Below, one piece after another: positions 3,517 to 14,528 of a stretch of DNA of 33,041 nucleotides. How positions within the stretch are numbered: the first letter of the stretch is position 1; each line of letters begins with the position of its first letter. A program made the position numbers and the translations under genes. Origin of the DNA: Sphingobacteriales bacterium (GTDB lineage: Bacteria; Bacteroidota; Bacteroidia; Chitinophagales; CAIOSU01); assembly GCA_027486795.1 (NCBI GenBank), contig JAIXOI010000043.1:1-33041 (forward strand), written 5' to 3'. Below the pieces are notes generated by a model that was given only the letters and a program-made list of their open reading frames with translations, was not told the DNA's origin and searched no databases.

Positions 3517-3622
3517 GTGTTGGGTTGATTTTTTAACTAAAATTGCCCTTTCTCTAAAACGCTGTTATGAGCTGGCTATGTATAGTTTGCAAATGTCTGA
3601 GCTAATTGGACTTGTGCTTTGA

Positions 3623-4201
3623 TTACCTTTTCAATATTTCTACTAATTCTTTGAAAGACGATATTCCGTTAATTTCCGCTGTGTTAATCCAGTCAATGCC
3701 TCCTGATGGCAAATAGTTTATTATACCTGTTTTGAAATTATACTGTTCGTTAATTTTCTTCATGTCAATAAACCAGTCCATAGGAAGCTTTTTTAGTCGC
3801 ACAATTTCTTGAAAGTCATTTGATAATTTGTTTGGTGACATTTGTTTTTGAATAAGAAGCAGTAAGCCCAAATCTATGGATTTAGCAACTTGTAAATATC
3901 CGACCAACTGCGAATAGTCTTTTAAACTTAACTGCTTTAAATATTTTGCCTCAATTAAAACCAATCTTACTTTTTTGTTCGGGCAGATAATAGAAAATAC
4001 TATGTCAACTTTCAATTTAGGAATGTACGTTCCTTTTTCTCTTATTATCATCCCCGCTTGACTTTCTAAATCTGACACTATGAAATCTAAAGTTTTGTTG
4101 CAAGAAAAGTAAACACTGTAATTATCCCCAAGATATGTATTTAGGTATTGAGTGAATTTCTTCGAAAATTCTTGATAATAACTGATTTCGTTCTGGAGCA
4201 C
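3623..4201 (-). CDS. PD-(D/E)XK-type endonuclease, presumed cleavage subunit of the R-M system
   Basis: The product has 192 residues. The central segment reads VDIVFSI, then 13 residues later LVLIEAKYLKQ, fitting the D-Xn-E-X-K active site of PD-(D/E)XK nucleases with D66, E84 and K86 as candidates. A helix rich in polar residues follows (DYSQLVGYLQVAKS), usual after this core. No separate DNA-recognition domain is apparent at this length. The start is GTG: the TAG stop of the upstream gene and this GTG share one G (TAGTG), indicating translational coupling. The next possible start, at residue 51, would leave only the core. It is the last gene of the operon after the methyltransferase and the LAGLIDADG-like protein. 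The DNA is AT-richer than neighbouring housekeeping genes. The nuclease assignment is motif-based; the restriction role is inferred from context. Confidence 0.65.
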   Translation of the reverse strand: MLQNEISYYQEFSKKFTQYLNTYLGDNYSVYFSCNKTLDFIVSDLESQAGMIIREKGTYIPKLKVDIVFSIICPNKKVRLVLIEAKYLKQLSLKDYSQLVGYLQVAKSIDLGLLLLIQKQMSPNKLSNDFQEIVRLKKLPMDWFIDMKKINEQYNFKTGIINYLPSGGIDWINTAEINGISSFKELVEILKR

Positions 4202-5523
4202 TATTTCAAATTTACGGTAAGACTATCTACGCTAATTTTTGTTTTGATTAGCTGTTGGTTCAAACTGTTGTTAACAGAAGAACAAATGAAAGCTCGTTCA
4301 TTTATTGAACTAATGACCAACAAGGGGCTGTCAAATGTTTTTCCAATAGTTATTAATGTTAATATTTCAGTTGTGTGTTTATTGATAATATCTTCCATTG
4401 AACCTCTGTGTCTCTTTCCATTTAATGCATCTGCAAAGAGATAAGCAACACCTTGGTCAATTCCTGTAAATCTCTCAAAATCTTGATGTTCTATAAGTCT
4501 TGATACTTTTACTTTATGCGTGGATATTTCTAACTCGGGAAAATATTTTGATTGAATTTCTTTCAACTTTTTCAAAAGTTCTGCTTTAGTTCCTTTTGAC
4601 AATTGAGGGAAGAAGTTAATGTAACTGCTTTTGTGCTTTACTAATTTTCTAATTTCTTCAATAGGAGCATGTTGACAACCCAAAACTGCACAAAAATGAT
4701 GATAGTGAAAAAATAATTTATTTCTAACATCAATTGGCAATTCATCTGAATTTTGGTCCGTATGAACTGAAACAGGACTTGGTGTTCTTAGTTTTCTTAG
4801 AACACAGGGAATTTGTTCTTCCTTTCTTTGGTGCTTTTCAATTATTGTTACGTCGATAGACTTGGCTTGTAGTGCAAAGGAGTATTGTGTAAGAAATGAG
4901 CGAACCAAGAACCGAATTTTAAAACCTTTTTTCCATCCTTTGTAATCAGGGTCTGAGCCCGAATGTTGGTTAGGATGATTGTATAAAATTTGATCTGTTG
5001 TTGAACCTAAATCAGTTAACCAAGAACATAACTGTATGACCAATTTAAAATTTCTTGTGCTTCCCGGAATTTCTACAGAAACAACAGGTGCGTCATTTGT
5101 AAATCTTCTATGAGTTAATGCCAAACTTGCTCTTGTATCAAAAATTCCAGACAAGAAACTTGATATATTTATGCCAACCAGTTTTGATTTAGCTGTTGAT
5201 AAGTCAGCGGTAGAAAGTAGAAAACCACCTATCGGCAATCCTAAATATTGCAGGTCATTTTTCAAACTTGAAATGTCAGAATTGTCAATTGGCAAAATCA
5301 ACCATTTGCCATTTCCAATTTCATAAGTTACATTAAAGTTGTATGATGAATTAAAATATTGGCAAATTTTCGAAAGAATATCTGTGGCAATAATATTCAT
5401 ACGTTTTGGTTCCATACCCCATTTTTTGAACGGAAGGTCGATAACAAAAGTGTTTTCGTCTATTTTCCCACTTCCTACCAACAGCCCAAGTATGTACGCT
5501 TTAATATGATTAATCGGCTCCAT
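4201..5523 (-). CDS. LAGLIDADG-like protein of the R-M operon, probable DNA-recognition subunit
   Basis: The product has 440 residues and lies between a C5-methyltransferase and a PD-(D/E)XK protein. It overlaps the methyltransferase by 14 bp and the nuclease by 1 bp. Two segments resemble LAGLIDADG helices: ILGLLVGSG (residues 11-19) and LSGIFDTRA (124-132), about 110 residues apart as in single-chain two-repeat enzymes. Beta-like stretches follow each, such as WLILPID and KGFKIRFLVRSF. In LAGLIDADG nucleases the eighth motif position is the catalytic acid. Here it is Ser18 in the first motif and Arg131 in the second, so metal-dependent cleavage by this fold seems unlikely. The C-terminal roughly 200 residues are basic and helical, with a YHHFCAVLGC segment, and match no family I know. 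I infer DNA recognition for the partner nuclease. A fused or repurposed homing endonuclease is the alternative. Confidence 0.55.
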   Translation of the reverse strand: MEPINHIKAYILGLLVGSGKIDENTFVIDLPFKKWGMEPKRMNIIATDILSKICQYFNSSYNFNVTYEIGNGKWLILPIDNSDISSLKNDLQYLGLPIGGFLLSTADLSTAKSKLVGINISSFLSGIFDTRASLALTHRRFTNDAPVVSVEIPGSTRNFKLVIQLCSWLTDLGSTTDQILYNHPNQHSGSDPDYKGWKKGFKIRFLVRSFLTQYSFALQAKSIDVTIIEKHQRKEEQIPCVLRKLRTPSPVSVHTDQNSDELPIDVRNKLFFHYHHFCAVLGCQHAPIEEIRKLVKHKSSYINFFPQLSKGTKAELLKKLKEIQSKYFPELEISTHKVKVSRLIEHQDFERFTGIDQGVAYLFADALNGKRHRGSMEDIINKHTTEILTLITIGKTFDSPLLVISSINERAFICSSVNNSLNQQLIKTKISVDSLTVNLK

Positions 5524-6802
5524 TTTCTAAGTGCTTTTCTAAAGCTTTGGCTATAACCCAAGCAAATACAGGAGGTACTGCATTGCCAATTACTTTATAG
5601 GCGTTTGCTATAGTTTTATAAGGAAAACAAAAATTATCAGGAAACGATTGTATCCTTGCAATCTCTCTAATTGTAAATCGTCTATCTTCAAATGGATGAG
5701 TAATGCCACAATTTTCTGGTTGAGCCGAAGCGGTAATTGTACCATTAATTTCGCCTAATGCAAACCTTCGATAAAAATTAGGTGCGTGATATTTTTTTGG
5801 GTTATCCCAAATTTTTCTAAAACGCTCTGACATGTCTTCAGGGTTCATACTTTTCCATGACTTCCCTTTGGAAATTGTTTGACTAATTTTATTTAGCGGT
5901 ATTTTCTTTTTGAATTTTGTTAATGCTTCTTTTCCATCTTCGCAAGGTCCAATTTTATCTATCATATATTGCCCACCTGGAGAATATTTCCAATAGTCAT
6001 TTGCTTGAGGAGCGTTTTTAGGAATATCACACAATACAGAGCCAAGATATAAGTCATAAGGATTGTCAGTTTCATTAGGCAAATTGTATTCCGCTACAAT
6101 TTGGTCTAATAAACTAAAATCAAAATATCCAAGATCTTCTCTAATTCCAACAATTATTAAACGCTGACGATTAGAAGGCACTCCGTAATTGCTAGTTTTT
6201 AAAAGTTTGTAACAAGTTTTAAATCCTAATATTTCTGTTCTTTTTACAATTTCATCAGGAATGCTTGTTCCATCTTCCATTTTGGAGGACATAATACCTT
6301 TTACATTTTCAAAAACAAAACCAATTGGTTTATTTTCTCTTTCCAAACCTACTTTGAGTAATCTTTCACATTCTTCAAATAGATTCCCTCTTTCATCATT
6401 TATACCTTTTCTCAATCCTGCATTTGAAAATGGTTGACAAGGAAAACCTGCAAGTAAAAAATCAAAGTCGGGAATATTCTCAAAATTTATATCTTTAATA
6501 TCTTCACGATGCAATTCGTGATTGTTGAAAAAAGAAGTATTTGCGTTATAAACGTATTCTGCAGCAGGGTCAATGTCATTTGAATATTCAATTTTGAATT
6601 TGGTTTTGTCAAAATGTCTGTCCCGAAAATCAAAGTTTCCAGAAAACCCTAAATCCAATCCTCCGCAACCACTAAATAGCGAAACGATTTTTAAGGCTTT
6701 CTGTTGAATTGCAGATGTTCTTTGTTTGTTGGTTCTAAAATCAATAAACATTTGAGGTTCTTCCACAGTTGAAATTGCTTCTAATTCTGTTGGGTTGTAC
6801 AT
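5510..6802 (-). CDS. DNA (cytosine-5-)-methyltransferase
   Basis: The product has 430 residues and transfers a methyl group from S-adenosylmethionine to C5 of cytosine in a specific site, protecting host DNA from the paired nuclease. The ordered C5-MTase motifs are visible: motif I VSLFSGCGGLDLGF (about 40-53), motif IV GFPCQPFS with catalytic Cys122, motif VI FENVKG (164-169), motif VIII NRQRLIIVGIRED, and motif X IGNAVPP near residue 411. The target-recognition region lies between motifs VIII and IX (about 225-345) and predicts no recognition site by eye. It is the first gene of a three-gene operon with overlapping downstream genes. A TTTG-N21-TATTTTTG promoter lies about 125 bp upstream. 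Methyltransferase-first order suits protection before restriction. AT-rich composition suggests transfer. Confidence 0.95.
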   Translation of the reverse strand: MYNPTELEAISTVEEPQMFIDFRTNKQRTSAIQQKALKIVSLFSGCGGLDLGFSGNFDFRDRHFDKTKFKIEYSNDIDPAAEYVYNANTSFFNNHELHREDIKDINFENIPDFDFLLAGFPCQPFSNAGLRKGINDERGNLFEECERLLKVGLERENKPIGFVFENVKGIMSSKMEDGTSIPDEIVKRTEILGFKTCYKLLKTSNYGVPSNRQRLIIVGIREDLGYFDFSLLDQIVAEYNLPNETDNPYDLYLGSVLCDIPKNAPQANDYWKYSPGGQYMIDKIGPCEDGKEALTKFKKKIPLNKISQTISKGKSWKSMNPEDMSERFRKIWDNPKKYHAPNFYRRFALGEINGTITASAQPENCGITHPFEDRRFTIREIARIQSFPDNFCFPYKTIANAYKVIGNAVPPVFAWVIAKALEKHLENGAD

Positions 6803-6927
6803 AATGTTTATAGCTTTATTGTTGGATGTTTTGTGTTTTTCAGTCTAATGAATTTCACTTTCCCTTCTGCAAGTGCAAGTACATTATCATTGCATTTGTT
6901 ATGAAGTTTTAGCCTTGTCGACTCTTA

Positions 6928-6960
6928 CAAAAATAAACATTTATACCCTACTCTGCCAAA
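6928..6960 (-). promoter_or_regulatory. Bacteroidota-type promoter of the R-M operon
   Basis: On the minus strand, TTTG (6960-6957) and TATTTTTG (6935-6928) are separated by 21 bp, matching the Bacteroidota TTTG-N19-21-TAnnTTTG consensus. Transcription would begin near 6921, giving a leader of about 120 nt before the methyltransferase ATG. Confidence 0.6.
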
Positions 6961-7005
6961 TTTTTTAGTACAATATTAAGAATGTTCGAGCATAGGTGGT
7001 TTTTA

Positions 7006-8367
7006 TCACTTTCCTATACAAAACTTCGAAAAGATATTCTCCAACAAATCGTTGGTGGTGATTTCGCCAGTGATTTCGCCGAGGTGGTGGAGGGCACGGC
7101 GGATGTCGAGGGCCATGAGGTCACCAGGGTTTTGGTTGGCTAGGCCAGTAAGTACCGCGTTTAGGGCTTCTTGGGTGGCGCGTAGGCTATCGTAGTGGCG
7201 GGCACTGGTCACTATGGTGTCTTCGGTGCCGAGGCCTTGCCCTGCAATGGTTTGCACTAGGGCCTGCTCCAGCGCTGCAATGCCCTCGCCCGTTTTTGCA
7301 GATACGAAAATAATATCGGGGTGCTTTTTGGTATAAGGCTCCAAGGCGCGGCGGTCGGGCAGGTTATCAATTTTGTTGCCCACCACTAGCACGGGTATGT
7401 TATCAGCTTTTAGGTGGTTCAAATCGTGCAGCAACATTTCTGGGCTAAGGCTGCTTATATCAAACAAATATACCACAAGGGCGCTTTGGCTTATTTTCTG
7501 GAAAGTACGCTCCACGCCCAGTTTTTCGATGGCATCGGTGGCCTCGCGTATACCTGCGGTATCAATAAGGCGAAAAAGAATGCCGCCAATGCTGATGGAC
7601 TCCTCGATGGTATCGCGGGTGGTGCCAGGTATATCGCTCACTATGGCGCGCTCCTCTTGCACTATGCGGTTTAGCAGCGTGCTTTTGCCCGAGTTGGGGC
7701 GGCCCGCTATTACAGTGCTCACGCCCGTTTTTATCACGTTGCCCAACTGAAACGAGCGTATCAAGCGCCCAATAATGTCTTGCAGTTCGTTGGTCAGGTT
7801 TTCGAGGGCGGCGCGGTCGGCAAACTCCACGTCTTCTTCGCCGAAATCGAGTTCCAGCTCAACCATACTAGCAAAGTGCACCAGCTTGCCGCGCAGTTCT
7901 TTAATGCGGTTGCTAAACCCGCCGCGCATTTGCTGCAGGGCCAAGGTATGCGAGGCCGCGCTATGCGACGATATAAGGTCTGCCACGGCCTCGGCTTGGC
8001 TGAGGTCCATGCGGCCGTTAAGGAACGCACGGAGCGTAAACTCGCCTGGCTTGGCGGCACGCGCGCCTTGCTCAATGAACAGTTCTATAACCTGTTGTAG
8101 TATATATGGCGAGCCGTGGCACGATATCTCGGCCACATCTTCTTTGGTGTACGAATGTGGGGCACGGAAAAGTGCCACCACTACCTCATCAATAAGCGCA
8201 TCGCCACGCGCAATGCTGCCAAAATGTAGGGTGTTGGCGGGCTGCGTGGTAAGGTCTTTGCCCTTGAACACGCCCGCAACTATATCAATGGCCCTTGGGC
8301 CCGATAACCTGATTACGCCTATTGCCCCTGTGCCTTGTGGCGTAGAGAGGGCCACGATAGTTTCCAT
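7006..8367 (-). CDS. mnmE: tRNA modification GTPase MnmE
   Basis: This homodimeric GTPase works with MnmG to install the aminomethyl-type group on C5 of wobble uridine 34 in tRNAs. The 453 residues are the normal length. The N-terminal tetrahydrofolate-binding domain opens with ETIVALSTPQGTGAIGVIRLSG. A helical domain carries the G domain, with G1 GRPNSGKST (222-230), G3 DTAG (269-272) and G4 NKID. The C-terminal FCIGK contains the conserved catalytic Cys. The ATG sits at the edge of a 24-bp sequence repeated at 10247-10270. In the distant copy the equivalent codon is GTG, so an inserted cassette appears to have replaced the start codon and everything upstream. The DUF4276 gene ends 16 bp before this start, so mnmE is probably cotranscribed with the cassette. 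Confidence 0.97.
   Translation of the reverse strand: METIVALSTPQGTGAIGVIRLSGPRAIDIVAGVFKGKDLTTQPANTLHFGSIARGDALIDEVVVALFRAPHSYTKEDVAEISCHGSPYILQQVIELFIEQGARAAKPGEFTLRAFLNGRMDLSQAEAVADLISSHSAASHTLALQQMRGGFSNRIKELRGKLVHFASMVELELDFGEEDVEFADRAALENLTNELQDIIGRLIRSFQLGNVIKTGVSTVIAGRPNSGKSTLLNRIVQEERAIVSDIPGTTRDTIEESISIGGILFRLIDTAGIREATDAIEKLGVERTFQKISQSALVVYLFDISSLSPEMLLHDLNHLKADNIPVLVVGNKIDNLPDRRALEPYTKKHPDIIFVSAKTGEGIAALEQALVQTIAGQGLGTEDTIVTSARHYDSLRATQEALNAVLTGLANQNPGDLMALDIRRALHHLGEITGEITTNDLLENIFSKFCIGK
8343..8366. repeat. 24-bp direct repeat, copy A (5' end of mnmE)
   Basis: This is identical over 24 bp to 10247-10270, and both flanks diverge immediately. It covers the first eight codons of intact mnmE except the first base of the start codon. 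It marks the mnmE-proximal boundary of the ATPase/DUF4276 insertion. Confidence 0.92.
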
Positions 8368-8383
8368 AGAATCATATTTGACT

Positions 8384-8941
8384 TTACCCTTTGAAAATTT
8401 TCATTAGTCTATGAAAATCATCCTTAAAATCGGTTGAAAGCATTTCGGTATCCAACAGGGGAAGTATCGAAGCCCCATCTTTAACTTTGTGATACTTTCC
8501 TTTTCTTGAATCCTTGGTTATATCAGCTAGAAAATCACTTGGGTCGGGGATATTAGAAGCGTGTTTTGCCGGAATACGCTTTGAAACGTTGCTTTTAAAG
8601 TAGTTATCTAACATCTCTGTTTGCGATAAAAACCAAGCTTCCATTTCTTGAACCATTAGAAAAACATTATCTTTTTCATCTTTTAATCCTAACTTCAATA
8701 TTACATCCTCCCTATTAGCATTTGGTAAATCTGAATCAATTAGCAAGGCCTTTTTCCCTTTACTTGCGTAATTTAAAAATTTTCTGGTGGTGGCAACTTG
8801 GTCATCACCCATTATAATTCGAGGCATTTTCCCTTTGAGTTTTTTCTCAAATAATAGGGAAAATCCTTTCTTAAGGTTTCCGTTCGTGTCGTCCGTAGTA
8901 CCTTCTATAAAAATTATGTAGTCCATATACTTATTTACCAA
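8384..8941 (-). CDS. DUF4276 family TOPRIM-like protein, presumed nuclease partner
   Basis: The product has 185 residues. The N-terminal strand IIFIEGTTD holds an acidic residue (Glu13), followed by ALLIDSDLPN with the DxD pair (Asp69, Asp71) and MVQEMEAWFLS, a segment I associate with DUF4276. Together these fit a TOPRIM fold, which in OLD-type systems is a metal-dependent nuclease working with an ABC-type ATPase. The gene overlaps the end of the ATPase gene by 7 bp if it starts at 8941. A second Met at 8926 would place the start 8 bp after the ATPase stop and directly before the conserved strand. It ends 16 bp upstream of mnmE. The pairing suggests a two-gene phage-defence module; that function is inferred from families and context. 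Confidence 0.75.
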   Translation of the reverse strand: MVNKYMDYIIFIEGTTDDTNGNLKKGFSLLFEKKLKGKMPRIIMGDDQVATTRKFLNYASKGKKALLIDSDLPNANREDVILKLGLKDEKDNVFLMVQEMEAWFLSQTEMLDNYFKSNVSKRIPAKHASNIPDPSDFLADITKDSRKGKYHKVKDGASILPLLDTEMLSTDFKDDFHRLMKIFKG

Positions 8942-10125
8942 CGATTACCGCCAATATCTCCTTGGCGCCACATTTTGCCTACAACAAAGTCATCATACCA
9001 TCCTTTAAATTCATCTTCCGAGTATCGTTTTCCAATTGTAGAGTTATTGGAATCTTTATCAAAAACAAGCACATTCGGCAAGTTAAATAAATCTAACAAA
9101 TGGCTAGAATGCGTTGCTATAATAAATTGTGACGTTTCTGAAGCAATCTTAACTCCTTCAGCAACTCCCTGTATCATATCGGGATGTAGACCATTTTCAG
9201 GCTCGTCAATACATATTATGGATCCCCTATTAGAATTGTGTAAAATTGCCAAAAGACACAAATATTTTAATGTTCCATCAGAAATTTTTGAAACGTGTAT
9301 TGAACGGTTTAAGCCTTTTTCAGCCAACATAATCTCTATGTTATTTCCAATATGATTAAAACTAAAATCTTCATATTGGCTGTTAATTTCAAAAAAGCTG
9401 TCTTTCAAAAGTTTATAGCTTTTTCTATCAGCAGTTGACATAGTATTTATTACTTGCGCTAAATTTGATCCATCTCCAAGCAACCTCTTTTCCGATGTTG
9501 ATAAAATAGGTTTTCTAATTTTAGAACTTGGGCTAGTATCTAAATAGCCATAATTTGCAATGTCTTCTATGGCCTTCCGGATTGTGCTAATAGGATAAAA
9601 TCTGTCTGGGTCATTCAGTAAATTCAATACAGATTCCTGGGGGTCAAAGTCGCTGTATCGAATGCTTTTAGGTGTGGAGCCCTTATCAGACTTTTCACTA
9701 GCGAATCCATTCCCTCTTTCAAACTCAAAATATACCCAATCTGGTTTATTGTCCTTTAAGGTATATAGCTTTTCGGCTAGGGTATAATTTTGAGTGCTAC
9801 CTACCTTTCTAATTGAAAGTAAGTAGCATATTGGCTCACGAAACTTCATTCCATAATTACTCACGACTTCATTATCTAGCTCCCATAGTAATTCTACTTT
9901 ATCATCAGCTGTGTCGCCAGCAAAAAAAATCTCGTCAAAACCACCCCATTTGTCTAAAACAAGATTTTTAAGCCCGCCTGAAACAATAGCCTTAAGAAGC
10001 TCAATAGATCGAATAAAATTACTTTTACCCGATCCATTTATTCCTATGAGTAAATTTTGATCCGCAAGTTCAATAGAAGTATCCTTAAAACTAAAGAAGT
10101 TTTTCAACCTAATGTTCTTAATCAT
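8935..10125 (-). CDS. AAA family ATPase (AAA_15/AAA_21, OLD-like)
   Basis: The product has 396 residues and is an ABC/SMC-type ATPase of the kind paired with TOPRIM nucleases in defence modules. The start IKNIRLKNFFSFKD is characteristic. Walker A is GINGSGKSN (28-36), the signature-like region is VSKISDGTLKYLCLLAIL, Walker B is IICIDEPENGLHP, and the H-loop is FIIATHSSHLLDLF near the C-terminus. There is no fused nuclease domain; that activity is presumably supplied by the overlapping DUF4276 gene. The ATG at 10125 directly precedes the conserved first strand. A TAAATTTG -7 element lies about 20 bp upstream, inside the insertion, so the pair may carry its own promoter. Composition is AT-rich relative to mnmE. 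Confidence 0.87.
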   Translation of the reverse strand: MIKNIRLKNFFSFKDTSIELADQNLLIGINGSGKSNFIRSIELLKAIVSGGLKNLVLDKWGGFDEIFFAGDTADDKVELLWELDNEVVSNYGMKFREPICYLLSIRKVGSTQNYTLAEKLYTLKDNKPDWVYFEFERGNGFASEKSDKGSTPKSIRYSDFDPQESVLNLLNDPDRFYPISTIRKAIEDIANYGYLDTSPSSKIRKPILSTSEKRLLGDGSNLAQVINTMSTADRKSYKLLKDSFFEINSQYEDFSFNHIGNNIEIMLAEKGLNRSIHVSKISDGTLKYLCLLAILHNSNRGSIICIDEPENGLHPDMIQGVAEGVKIASETSQFIIATHSSHLLDLFNLPNVLVFDKDSNNSTIGKRYSEDEFKGWYDDFVVGKMWRQGDIGGNRW

Positions 10126-11363: not shown

Positions 11364-14300
11364 ATGGGAATGGGCATCGAAAATGGGCAATTTGAACAAG
11401 AGCTGAACAAGCTAAATGCAGCACAGCGACGCGCCGTGGATACCATTGATGGACCTGTGCTGGTAATTGCTGGCCCAGGTACGGGCAAAACCCAAATTTT
11501 GGCCGCCCGTATTGGCAACATCCTTGCCCAAACCGATGCCCGACCCGAAAACATACTTTGCCTTACCTATACCGATGCAGGTGCCATAGCCATGCGCCGC
11601 CGCCTGCTCAAGTTTATTGGGCCCGATGCGCATAAAGTTACCATCAGTACATTTCACGCGTTTTGTAATAGCGTAATCAAAGACAATCTCGACTTGTTTG
11701 GCATACGCGCTTTGGATAGCATTACCGACTTGGAAAAACGCCAACTGCTTCGCAAACTTATTGATGGGTTTGGTGCCAAACACCCTTTGAAACGATTTAC
11801 AGGCGACGTGTACTACGAAGCCCAAAAGCTGGACAACCTATTCAGCTTAATGAAAAAAGAAGATTGGAGCCCAGCGTATATTTCTGCTAAAATTGACGAG
11901 TACTTAGAGTCGTTGCCAGAGCGCGAGGAGTACAAGTATAAGGTAAACAACAGCAAAGCAGGGTATAAAAAGGGCGACCCGAAGCAAAAGGACATTGATG
12001 CCGAAACGGATAAAATGTTGCAATTGAAGGCCGCTTGCCAGGAGTTTCCGAGGTTTATGGAAATGATGGCCGAGCGCAAGCGCTACGATTTTGACGACAT
12101 GATTTTGTTGGTGCTCAATGAGTTTAAGCGCAATGAGAACTTGCTACGCCAATACCAAGAGCGTTTTTTATACTTTTTGGTGGATGAGTATCAAGATACC
12201 AATGGTGCCCAAAATGAGATAATTGATAAGCTGGCCGATTTTTGGGAACGGCCCAACTTGTTTGTGGTTGGCGACGACGACCAATCTATCTACCGCTTTC
12301 AAGGGGCCAACGTGGAGAATATTTTGCGTTTCCATAACAAATACAACCCTGAGCTAGTAATGCTCACCGACAATTACCGTAGCACGCAGTATATTCTAGA
12401 TGCTGCAAGGCATTTGATACAAAACAATACAGAGCGTTTAATAAACGCTATTAAGGGTTTGAGCAAAGACCTTAAGGCCGCCAACCCTACTTATGCCGAT
12501 TTGCCCGTGAAACCCGAAGTGCGCGAGTACTATAACCTTTCGCACGAAACGGTGGGTATTGCGCAAGAAGTAGAGAAGCTGCAAAAAGAGGGCGTAAAGC
12601 TATCCGAAATAGCCATTATCTATCGCGGGCATAGGCAAGCCGAAGACATAGCTCGGTACCTTGAAAGCCAAGGCATACCCTTGTTTGTGCGCCGCAAGTT
12701 AAACATCCTGGAGTCGCCATTTATAGGCAATGTACTTACGCTGCTGGAGTATATTAACGAAGAGGCCAAAAAACCGCATAGCCGCGAAGATTTGCTGTTT
12801 CACATCATGCACTTCAACTTCTTTGGCATTGAGCCATTGATAATAGCCAAAGTAGCCGCAGGCTTACGAAACGATTATAAAACCCGCTGGCGCGAAGCCT
12901 TGCGCAGCGTGCAGGCACAGGCAGGCACCAACTTGTTTGATAGTAATGCTAACGAGAGCTACCGCCGCATAAAGCAACTAAGCGATAACATTGAGTATTG
13001 GATAAAGGAGCTGCACAACACCACGCTGCAAACCCTATTCGAGAAAGTAATGACCCGTGGCGGATTGTTGCGCGAAATAATGCTTTCGCCACAGAAGTTT
13101 GAGCTGCTAGATAAACTGACAACCTTGTTCCAGTTTATTAAAGATGAAACCGTAAAAGACCCTAAGCTAAAGTTAGATGGTTTTTTGCGAACCATTAAAG
13201 AAATGAGGGACGAAAGCATCTCGTTGGAAGTACATAAAAAAGGCTTTTTTGAAGATGGCGTAAACCTAGTAACTGCCCACAGCTCAAAAGGCTTGGAGTA
13301 CGAGTATGTGTTTTTGATTGGCTGCGACAAAAGAACCTGGGATGGGTCGTCGGCGCGTAGCAGCGATTTTAAGTTTCCGGACAATCTGCACACCAGCGTT
13401 GGCGATGGAGACGATGCCGAAGAGGGTAGGCGATTGTTTTATGTAGCCCTTACACGTGCCAAAAAACAGTTGGTGGTGAGCTATGCGGTAGCATCAATGG
13501 ATGGCAAGAAGATGGAGTGTAGCCGCTATGTGGATGAACTGAGAACCAGCCAAGATATTGAAGTTAGAGAGGTGCATTTGCCGGACGAGGCCCTTACGGC
13601 TTTCCATTTAACCATCCTTTCTGAGCCGCCGCTACCCAATTTGCCGTTGTTGGAGGAAACCTTATTGCGTCGCATATTGGAGCATTACTCGCTAAGCGTG
13701 AGCCATTTGAATACTTATTTGAAGTGTCCCGTTAGTTTTTATTATGGCACGCTGCTGCGCATACCAGTGGCTAAAAATGCTGCAATGGCCTTTGGATCGG
13801 CAGTGCACTTTGCTATGGAGCACGTTTTCGTGAAAATGAAAAACAACCACGATGAGTTTGTAGGCCCAACAACTTTGGTGCAAGACTTTGAGTGGTATAT
13901 GCGCCGCCACCAAGACTCGTTTACGGACGAGGATTTTGACCGCCGAATGGAGTATGGTCGCCTTATTTTGCCCCAGTACTACCACAAATACGTTGATATT
14001 TGGAATAAAGTAGCCATTGTAGAACGGAACTTGAAAACGGTAATTGACGACATCCCTATCAACGGAAAGCTTGATAAATTAGAGTTTGATGGTAAATCGG
14101 TAAATGTGGTGGATTATAAAACGGGCAAGTTTGAAAACGCTAAGAAGAAGTTTTACCCACCCACCGAAGACTTTAAGAAGGAAGAACCCACTCACGAAGA
14201 AAAGTATGGTGGCGACTATTGGCGCCAAGGGGTGTTCTATAAATTGCTGGTAGACAACGAGGACACTAAGGGCTGGACAGTGGTATCAACAGAGTTCGAT

Positions 14301-14528
14301 TTTATTGAACCCGACCGCAAAACCAACGAATACTACAAACAGAAAATCATCATCAACCCCGAGGATTTGAATGTGGTACGCGCCCAGATAAAAGAAGCCT
14401 ACCGCGGCATACAAAATCTAGAATTTAAACGAGGCTGCAACGATAGTAACTGCCAGTGGTGTAACTTCGTGAAAAACAACTTTCAGCTTGATGCGAGTTT
14501 GGTGGGCGAAGATGGGGAGTTGGAGTAA
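11364..14528 (+). CDS. UvrD/AddB-like ATP-dependent DNA helicase with C-terminal PD-(D/E)XK nuclease
   Basis: The product has 1054 residues. The SF1 helicase motifs are in order: Walker A AGPGTGKTQ (36-44), FLVDEYQDTN (Walker B), VVGDDDQSIYRFQGA (motif III), LTDNYRS (motif IV), VTAHSSKGLEYEYVFLIG (motif V) and RRLFYVALTRAKKQLVV (motif VI). The C-terminal part is a RecB-family nuclease. YLKCPVSFYYG near residue 789 supplies one Cys, VVDYKTGK near 915 is the active-site strand, and GCNDSNCQWCNF near 1023-1033 supplies three more Cys. By family knowledge this arrangement holds a 4Fe-4S cluster, as in AddB and Cas4. The enzyme probably unwinds and trims DNA ends in recombinational repair. No AddA-like partner is adjacent. 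The gene is convergent with ftsH and shares a terminator with it. Confidence 0.9.
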   Translation: MGMGIENGQFEQELNKLNAAQRRAVDTIDGPVLVIAGPGTGKTQILAARIGNILAQTDARPENILCLTYTDAGAIAMRRRLLKFIGPDAHKVTISTFHAFCNSVIKDNLDLFGIRALDSITDLEKRQLLRKLIDGFGAKHPLKRFTGDVYYEAQKLDNLFSLMKKEDWSPAYISAKIDEYLESLPEREEYKYKVNNSKAGYKKGDPKQKDIDAETDKMLQLKAACQEFPRFMEMMAERKRYDFDDMILLVLNEFKRNENLLRQYQERFLYFLVDEYQDTNGAQNEIIDKLADFWERPNLFVVGDDDQSIYRFQGANVENILRFHNKYNPELVMLTDNYRSTQYILDAARHLIQNNTERLINAIKGLSKDLKAANPTYADLPVKPEVREYYNLSHETVGIAQEVEKLQKEGVKLSEIAIIYRGHRQAEDIARYLESQGIPLFVRRKLNILESPFIGNVLTLLEYINEEAKKPHSREDLLFHIMHFNFFGIEPLIIAKVAAGLRNDYKTRWREALRSVQAQAGTNLFDSNANESYRRIKQLSDNIEYWIKELHNTTLQTLFEKVMTRGGLLREIMLSPQKFELLDKLTTLFQFIKDETVKDPKLKLDGFLRTIKEMRDESISLEVHKKGFFEDGVNLVTAHSSKGLEYEYVFLIGCDKRTWDGSSARSSDFKFPDNLHTSVGDGDDAEEGRRLFYVALTRAKKQLVVSYAVASMDGKKMECSRYVDELRTSQDIEVREVHLPDEALTAFHLTILSEPPLPNLPLLEETLLRRILEHYSLSVSHLNTYLKCPVSFYYGTLLRIPVAKNAAMAFGSAVHFAMEHVFVKMKNNHDEFVGPTTLVQDFEWYMRRHQDSFTDEDFDRRMEYGRLILPQYYHKYVDIWNKVAIVERNLKTVIDDIPINGKLDKLEFDGKSVNVVDYKTGKFENAKKKFYPPTEDFKKEEPTHEEKYGGDYWRQGVFYKLLVDNEDTKGWTVVSTEFDFIEPDRKTNEYYKQKIIINPEDLNVVRAQIKEAYRGIQNLEFKRGCNDSNCQWCNFVKNNFQLDASLVGEDGELE

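Follow-up and report, generated by a model that had tools for sequence, protein, structure and literature searches.

We analysed a 33,041-nucleotide stretch of DNA (the window), positions 1 to 33,041 of contig JAIXOI010000043.1 from the assembly GCA_027486795.1 of a Sphingobacteriales bacterium. Its minus strand carries, between positions 3623 and 6802, three open reading frames (ORFs) that overlap head to tail and encode proteins of 430, 440 and 192 amino acids (aa), in this order. The three genes probably constitute a Type II restriction-modification (R-M) cassette with a split restriction enzyme, in which a cleavage-dead LAGLIDADG protein serves as the reader and a separate PD-(D/E)XK protein as the cutter. 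We infer the physical complex of the two proteins and its stoichiometry, the reading of the site by the LAGLIDADG part and its cleavage by the small part. With somewhat less confidence we regard the cassette as a member of a widespread, unnamed Type II class, in which a domesticated dead LAGLIDADG meganuclease would read an often asymmetric site and load a detachable PD-(D/E)XK cutter. A split restriction enzyme had been proposed in a first-pass annotation made from the sequence alone, and the proposal gained support from the conserved pairing of the two genes, the change of the methyltransferases next to them, the absence of the LAGLIDADG catalytic acids, the retention of the PD motif in the small protein and the exchange of the whole cassette in a related genome.

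The gene of the C5-cytosine DNA methyltransferase (430 aa, the modification enzyme) occupies positions 5510..6802 of the minus strand. It is followed on the same strand by the gene of the degenerate two-repeat LAGLIDADG protein (4201..5523, 440 aa), the proposed DNA-reading subunit, and by that of the PD-(D/E)XK-like protein (3623..4201, 192 aa, GTG start), the proposed cutting subunit. The ORF coordinates agree with the overlaps given by the first-pass annotation: 14 bp between the methyltransferase and the 440-aa gene, and 1 bp between the 440-aa and the 192-aa gene. The only other ORF of at least 80 aa in the cassette encodes 98 aa on the opposite strand, within the three genes.

The borders of the cassette (3528..7009) were defined by comparison with G447, which belongs to another species of the genus. 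Blastn aligned the two flanks with 90.6% and 96.1% DNA identity and placed the joins at window positions 3527 and 7010. The DNA between the joins is specific to the window, and its G+C content is 32-34% vs 50-54% in the flanking housekeeping genes. At the same site (L147 746-5645, between mnmE and a 206-aa gene adjoining glpK) G447 carries an unrelated R-M cassette, which encodes a helix-turn-helix protein, a 990-aa Type IIG enzyme (PADLOC PDLC03604, 1200.8 bits) and an Eco57I-type methyltransferase. Since the flanks match while the contents differ, one R-M unit replaces another, and the exchange of the whole cassette implies that the three window genes are all that the cassette offers for both modification and restriction. 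The gene unit, the cassette swap and the many hosts described below show that the methyltransferase and a candidate endonuclease lie side by side in one exchangeable unit.

The 430-aa protein is certainly a C5 methyltransferase, as first annotated. Residues 37-422 match PF00145 with an E-value of 1.4e-66 (225.6 bits, cut-off 22), and the nearest solved chain is M.HaeIII (E 2.2e-35). The PCQ and ENV motifs can be read directly in the sequence, and we take them to have their customary meaning in this enzyme family.

The fold of the 440-aa protein was predicted with AlphaFold2, for which 64 LAGLIDADG sequences were picked so as to thin near-duplicates (55 sequences in the case of the small protein). 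The model had a mean predicted local distance difference test (pLDDT) score of 58.8, with values of 56-88 in ten-residue blocks across residues 1-210. Residues 6-93 and 120-213 each follow the order helix-strand-strand-helix-strand-strand-helix, with short extra helices. Foldseek returned 31 PDB matches at E<=1e-3, all of them LAGLIDADG proteins, with I-AniI, WhiA, inteins and I-DmoI at the top; superposition was modest (first match: template modelling score 0.27/0.42, root-mean-square deviation 10.9). VIA-align, which re-examined Foldseek's own match list and was thus not an independent search, gave the best result with I-Tsp061I (Z 13.3, root-mean-square deviation 3.8, 184 aligned residues), followed by I-DmoI (Z 11.9), and all 50 rows listed were LAGLIDADG proteins. 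The LAGLIDADG-like part comprises residues 1-240 of the model. The model and the PDB matches together thus point to two alpha-beta-beta-alpha-beta-beta-alpha repeats arranged as a saddle, the superfamily fold. The first-pass annotation had named a missing saddle as the result that would speak against a split enzyme; AlphaFold2, Foldseek and VIA-align all found it present. It had also described two LAGLIDADG-like helices about 110 residues apart, and these correspond to the double repeat of the model, with 113 residues between them. Judged by the model, the likeness of these helices to LAGLIDADG is beyond chance.

Profile comparison pointed in the same direction. LAGLIDADG_3 matches (L103-L106) were taken as controls; L105, an intact two-motif protein from the same order, was the one used, and the intein-like L104 and L106 were left out. 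Hhalign matched the family profile with L105 over residues 87-180 (probability 86.5, P 4.6e-6), and a second family profile gave a probability of 63.7 (P 6.7e-5). The window protein had no Pfam LAGLIDADG match above the curated cut-off, and the family profile had no match in the PDB. Among 64 members scanned against Pfam at E<=1, Hom_end was matched by 10 (best E 0.02), LAGLIDADG_3 by three (0.049) and LAGLIDADG_2 by one (0.013). Weak matches were also scattered over DUF2525 in Pfam (19 of 64, best E 0.0021), which is unrelated, colicin_Z in NCBIfam (15 of 64, best E 0.0061) and PtuA in PADLOC (1 of 64, E 0.0007); these were taken as chance. Sequence searches of NCBIfam, PADLOC, PHROGs and the PDB gave no above-threshold match for either the 440-aa or the 192-aa protein.

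The family was first reached through a phage. Tblastn with the 440-aa protein gave no match in plasmids and one match, with E 0.03, in phages; a first viral scan with the same protein found no relative, and tblastn with the 192-aa protein found no match in plasmids or phages. The phage match is a 290-aa protein flanked by a methyltransferase fusion and by a 165-aa protein with the same PD motif. We consider this weak match credible because the layout of the neighbouring genes is the same as in the window. Starting from the phage relative, we reached a second phage, two plasmids of Lactiplantibacillus plantarum and four viral contigs. When the genome collection was scanned with the LAGLIDADG alignment, 160 relatives emerged, and the best 80 were kept. 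L005, another plasmid bearing the L004 system, was not counted, and L009-L011 and L013-L016 are repeats of viral contigs. According to the record titles the hosts are Clostridia and other Bacillota, Bacteroidales, spirochaetes, Saccharibacteria and others, and many of the records are metagenome-assembled genomes. Four annotated phage and plasmid records were inspected, and in these the family members are labelled hypothetical proteins. In the very small L. plantarum plasmids L004 and L005 (6.5 and 8.8 kb) the R-M system has a replication gene and a YafQ-type toxin gene as neighbours; L. plantarum proteins of this system bear the accessions WP_220639322.1 and WP_253735072.1.

The window protein shares 21-29% identity with the relatives found in the scan. 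In a sample of 395 genomes of the phylum the LAGLIDADG match was confined to the host; a sample of 396 genomes of the order gave four matches including the host, one of which extended over 28 positions with stop codons and was taken as spurious. L102, from the same order, encodes a protein 68% identical to the window LAGLIDADG protein, again behind a C5 methyltransferase; no small gene is visible there because the contig ends 123 bases past the LAGLIDADG gene. L101, also of this order, scored between L102 and the other relatives.

In active homing endonucleases such as I-CreI and I-DmoI each LAGLIDADG helix ends in a catalytic acid, and the window protein has neither of the two. The corresponding positions are taken to be Ser18 in the sequence GLLVGSGKI (codon 5470..5472, minus strand) and Arg131 in GIFDTRASL (codon 5131..5133, minus strand), 113 residues apart and the same two residues that the first-pass annotation had named. 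In the hhalign alignment with L105 Arg131 stands opposite the catalytic Asp of the second helix, and Asp129 opposite the preceding, non-catalytic Asp. Because the alignment misses the first helix, Ser18 was assigned from the motif and the model. Residues were counted in 87 rows (83 distinct); rows below 400 bits, which were the two fragments of the interrupted L063 gene, were dropped, with the window kept as an exception. The first acid position is occupied by Asn in 86 of the 87 rows and by Ser in the window only, the second by Thr in 86 rows and by Arg in the window only. L101 has His and Thr, and L102 has Gly and Arg, so that an acid was found at either position in none of the 89 members examined (87 rows, L101 and L102). 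Judged from these sequences, loss of both catalytic acids is a trait of the family.

The 192-aa protein is probably a PD-(D/E)XK protein, as suggested by its motif and by weak profile matches. It contains the superfamily pattern D-(x)n-(D/E)xK as D66...E84-A-K86 (Asp66 codon 4004..4006, Glu84-Ala85-Lys86 codons 3944..3952, both on the minus strand). Counts were made in 85 rows (81 distinct); with the window kept as an exception, rows below 150 bits (L042 and L063) were dropped, and L071 contributed none. Asp44, Asp66, Glu84, Ala85, Lys86, Gln98 and Tyr102 are invariant in all 85, and Asp66, Glu84 and Lys86 are kept in L101 as well (D...E-C-K). In the AlphaFold2 model the strands 67-72 and 78-83 are followed by a helix at 93-105, an order that fits PD-(D/E)XK. 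The motif in the first-pass call of a PD-(D/E)XK gene stood, but the Pfam match to PDDEXK_3 (19.1 bits, E 0.0017) stayed under the 22-bit cut-off. Hhalign set E84-x-K86 and Q98 onto their equivalents in PDDEXK_3 (P 0.0022) and YhcG_C (P 0.0027), whereas three comparisons across folds gave P 0.42-0.7. YhcG_C was also the Pfam family touched by most members (12 of 55, best E 0.025). The PD family profile had three matches in the PDB, all at chance level (E 1.3-1.5). The rows of both alignments share descent, so the residue counts do not represent independent events; the divergence between subfamilies nevertheless makes long-term constraint likely for the residues of the LAGLIDADG and the small protein alike.

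In bacteria, phages and plasmids alike, the LAGLIDADG gene and the small gene are conserved as a two-gene unit, in most cases with an overlap, while the METHYLTRANSFERASES beside them change. The small gene was found directly behind the LAGLIDADG gene in 79 of the 80 kept loci, although the scan query was the LAGLIDADG family only; it is interrupted in L042 and L063. Measured to the first possible start codon, the spacing between the two genes varies from -52 to +4 bases, the broken L063 aside. The pairwise distances of the LAGLIDADG proteins correlated with those of the PD proteins (r 0.83 in 84 loci, with L042, L061, L063 and L071 left out; 0.77 without the window), and none of 1000 permutations reached as high a value.

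The methyltransferases were typed by Pfam in the seeds P0003 and L006, and by phmmer against these seeds in the other loci. Upstream of the gene pair, 65 of 88 loci have an EcoRI-type adenine and a C5 methyltransferase (fused in 31), 17 an Eco57I-type adenine and an N4-type enzyme, and two a C5 and an Eco57I-type adenine methyltransferase. A C5 enzyme alone was seen in three, the window, L060 and L067, the contigs of the latter two beginning at that gene. In L091 the contig opens with the LAGLIDADG gene, and no methyltransferase is visible. For L084 the adenine half emerged only without a length filter; otherwise the N4-type gene stood alone. L101 has a fusion of a D12 adenine and an N6_N4-type methyltransferase. 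Following the TSPPY motif rule, we take the N4-type enzymes to methylate cytosine. An adenine-type and a cytosine-type methyltransferase thus occur together in 84 of the 88 loci, the cytosine specificity being derived from the motif in 17. A non-palindromic site without a common target base on its two strands would need one adenine and one cytosine enzyme. The pair suggests, as far as sequence can tell, a non-palindromic site, which a single-chain, pseudo-symmetric protein could read.

A further gene was noticed in some relatives between the methyltransferase and the LAGLIDADG genes, where 11 loci with a gap, and in addition L101, were examined. It encodes small proteins (112-164 aa) with a common (E/Q)-x-R-(I/L)-Y pattern, located at L075 3749-4564, L080 6171-6985, L086 6183-6982, L073 6497-6985, L076 3989-4860, L092 6395-6877, L094 2378-2716, L090 6651-6992, L026 2487-2825 and L101 5551-5925. 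Three of them were scanned and had no Pfam match. A gene behind the small gene in L006 (7374-7823) resembles them by eye. The pattern makes a third component of the system possible. In L012 (2868-3944, 358 aa) and L077 (5926-6999, 357 aa) a similar small domain heads a longer protein. The end of the L012 protein matches NOV_C (E 5.5e-9), and that of L077 is alike in appearance. We take NOV_C to be a nuclease-like domain; if so, some systems would contain two nucleases.

In the mechanism that we propose, the C5 methyltransferase would mark the host sites. The LAGLIDADG protein, whose single chain consists of two halves that are similar but not equal, would bind the unmarked site via its saddle, unable to cut it because its catalytic acids are gone. 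The small protein, made by coupled translation, would dock on the LAGLIDADG protein and cut the unmethylated site. The proposal leaves room for one or two small subunits and for a cut within or beside the site.

Several observations weigh against a split enzyme of this kind. The 440-aa model is only moderate, with 11 of 15 blocks past residue 290 below 50 pLDDT. The model of the 192-aa protein is poor (mean pLDDT 50), and Foldseek found no match for it at E<=0.001; the best had E 0.21, and nothing was drawn from the mixed list at E 0.2-1 (a splicing endonuclease, gelsolin, PaqCI, VRR_NUC, BamHI). The hhalign probabilities of the small protein were low, 13% with PDDEXK_3 and 11% with YhcG_C. 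L071 had no small gene by profile or by tblastn. The adenine methyltransferase of the other branch is absent from both the window and its close relative L102; as the window shows a C5 enzyme only, its site may differ in kind. Correlated distances are expected for partners, but also from simple co-inheritance of a linked pair. The invariant Asp129, which precedes the second catalytic position by two residues, could in principle join catalysis. Finally, a nuclease as small as this one can be a complete enzyme by itself.

The last point underlies the main rival, in which the small PD-(D/E)XK protein, comparable in size to small homodimeric restriction enzymes, is itself a complete homodimeric enzyme, whereas the LAGLIDADG protein acts as a WhiA-like regulator of transcription or assembly. 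WhiA (DUF199), one of the structural matches, gives this reading a precedent: it likewise has a LAGLIDADG fold that lost cleavage (PMC7282813). WhiA is described as a transcription regulator with a helix-turn-helix domain, whereas the neighbours in the window are a putative nuclease and a methyltransferase. The LAGLIDADG gene overlaps both of its neighbours, and the pair stays adjacent despite swapped methyltransferases. The L101 cassette has a separate helix-turn-helix gene in front, which, together with the strict pairing, weighs against a regulator. The adenine and cytosine methyltransferases, moreover, suggest an asymmetric site that a homodimer alone could not read. We consider the regulator unlikely.

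Even less probable is a LAGLIDADG protein that still cuts by other residues, such as Asp129 and Glu151, with the small protein as an accessory nickase. Asp129, Glu151, Lys33, His183 and Lys198 are indeed invariant in all 87 LAGLIDADG rows. Against this, none of the members examined keeps an acid at either canonical position, Asp129 aligns with a non-catalytic Asp of the intact L105, and the motif of the small protein is kept in all 85 rows. LAGLIDADG genes are commonly mobile and may decay by loss of the catalytic acids, but a functionless homing endonuclease that had invaded an R-M operon is barely credible in a family with the LAGLIDADG frame open in all 88 loci except L063, with conserved motifs (HPN, W-K), identical substitutions and a constant position, and with no intact-acid relative among those examined.

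The split enzyme, which we prefer to these alternatives, shares features with several known systems. Residues 1-240 of the window protein have the same fold and topology as I-DmoI, I-Tsp061I and PI-SceI, which contain two repeats in one chain; unlike these proteins, it lacks both acids, and its gene shares an R-M cassette with that of a separate putative nuclease. The subunits of LlaJI are McrBC-like. LlaJI has its specificity (R1) and cleavage (R2) subunits on two proteins and includes two methyltransferases, as described in PMC11779793, and the window enzyme is predicted to be split likewise. In the heteromeric Type IIT enzymes BspD6I/BstNBI, BbvCI and Bpu10I two different proteins make one enzyme; in a 2014 review of Type II enzymes they are said to have two different catalytic sites (PMC4081073), whereas the large protein of the window is predicted to be dead and of LAGLIDADG origin. 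The same review groups the catalytic sites as PD-D/EXK, HNH, GIY-YIG and half-pipe, and the word LAGLIDADG is absent from the review text searched (PMC4081073). A phospholipase-D class is named in another paper (PMC2630997).

Five candidates for a prior description were set aside, each on passages from its report: MhoVII of Mycoplasma hominis, a fusion of two other adenine methyltransferases; the SagCOH1 systems of group B Streptococcus; Clostridium cellulovorans Clocel_4005/4006, compared with LlaJI by its authors; BsaXI, where LAGLIDADG is mentioned only as an example of nicking; and the methylomes of the Bacteroides fragilis group, where no mention was found. Among the matches listed from open-licence PMC papers, with REBASE and subscription papers outside this scope, there was no report joining a split restriction enzyme with a cleavage-dead LAGLIDADG protein, in line with the first-pass statement that no characterised Type II system so built was known to it. 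Split restriction enzymes and a cleavage-dead LAGLIDADG regulator are each known separately; the LAGLIDADG reader fold appears to be new for restriction enzymes.

If the split enzyme is real, LAGLIDADG joins the restriction-enzyme folds, unexpectedly as a reader rather than as a cutter. The relatives at 160 loci and the hypothetical-protein labels indicate that defence genes of this class have probably gone unrecognised in annotation. Enzyme engineering would profit from a reader that can be separated from its cutter, and with this family at hand the transition from homing endonuclease to defence protein becomes directly testable.

Two other regions of the window contain genes resembling defence models. 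At 8384-10125, on the minus strand, a gene for an AAA_21/AAA_15 ATPase (396 aa) overlaps one for a DUF4276 protein (185 aa); the pair is low in G+C, and in PADLOC it matches the models HEC-01A and HEC-01B best. Together with the R-M cassette, the pair forms a small defence island around mnmE. Further along, at 11364-14528 on the plus strand, lies the gene of a 1054-aa protein, the helicase part of which matches UvrD-like GajB models.

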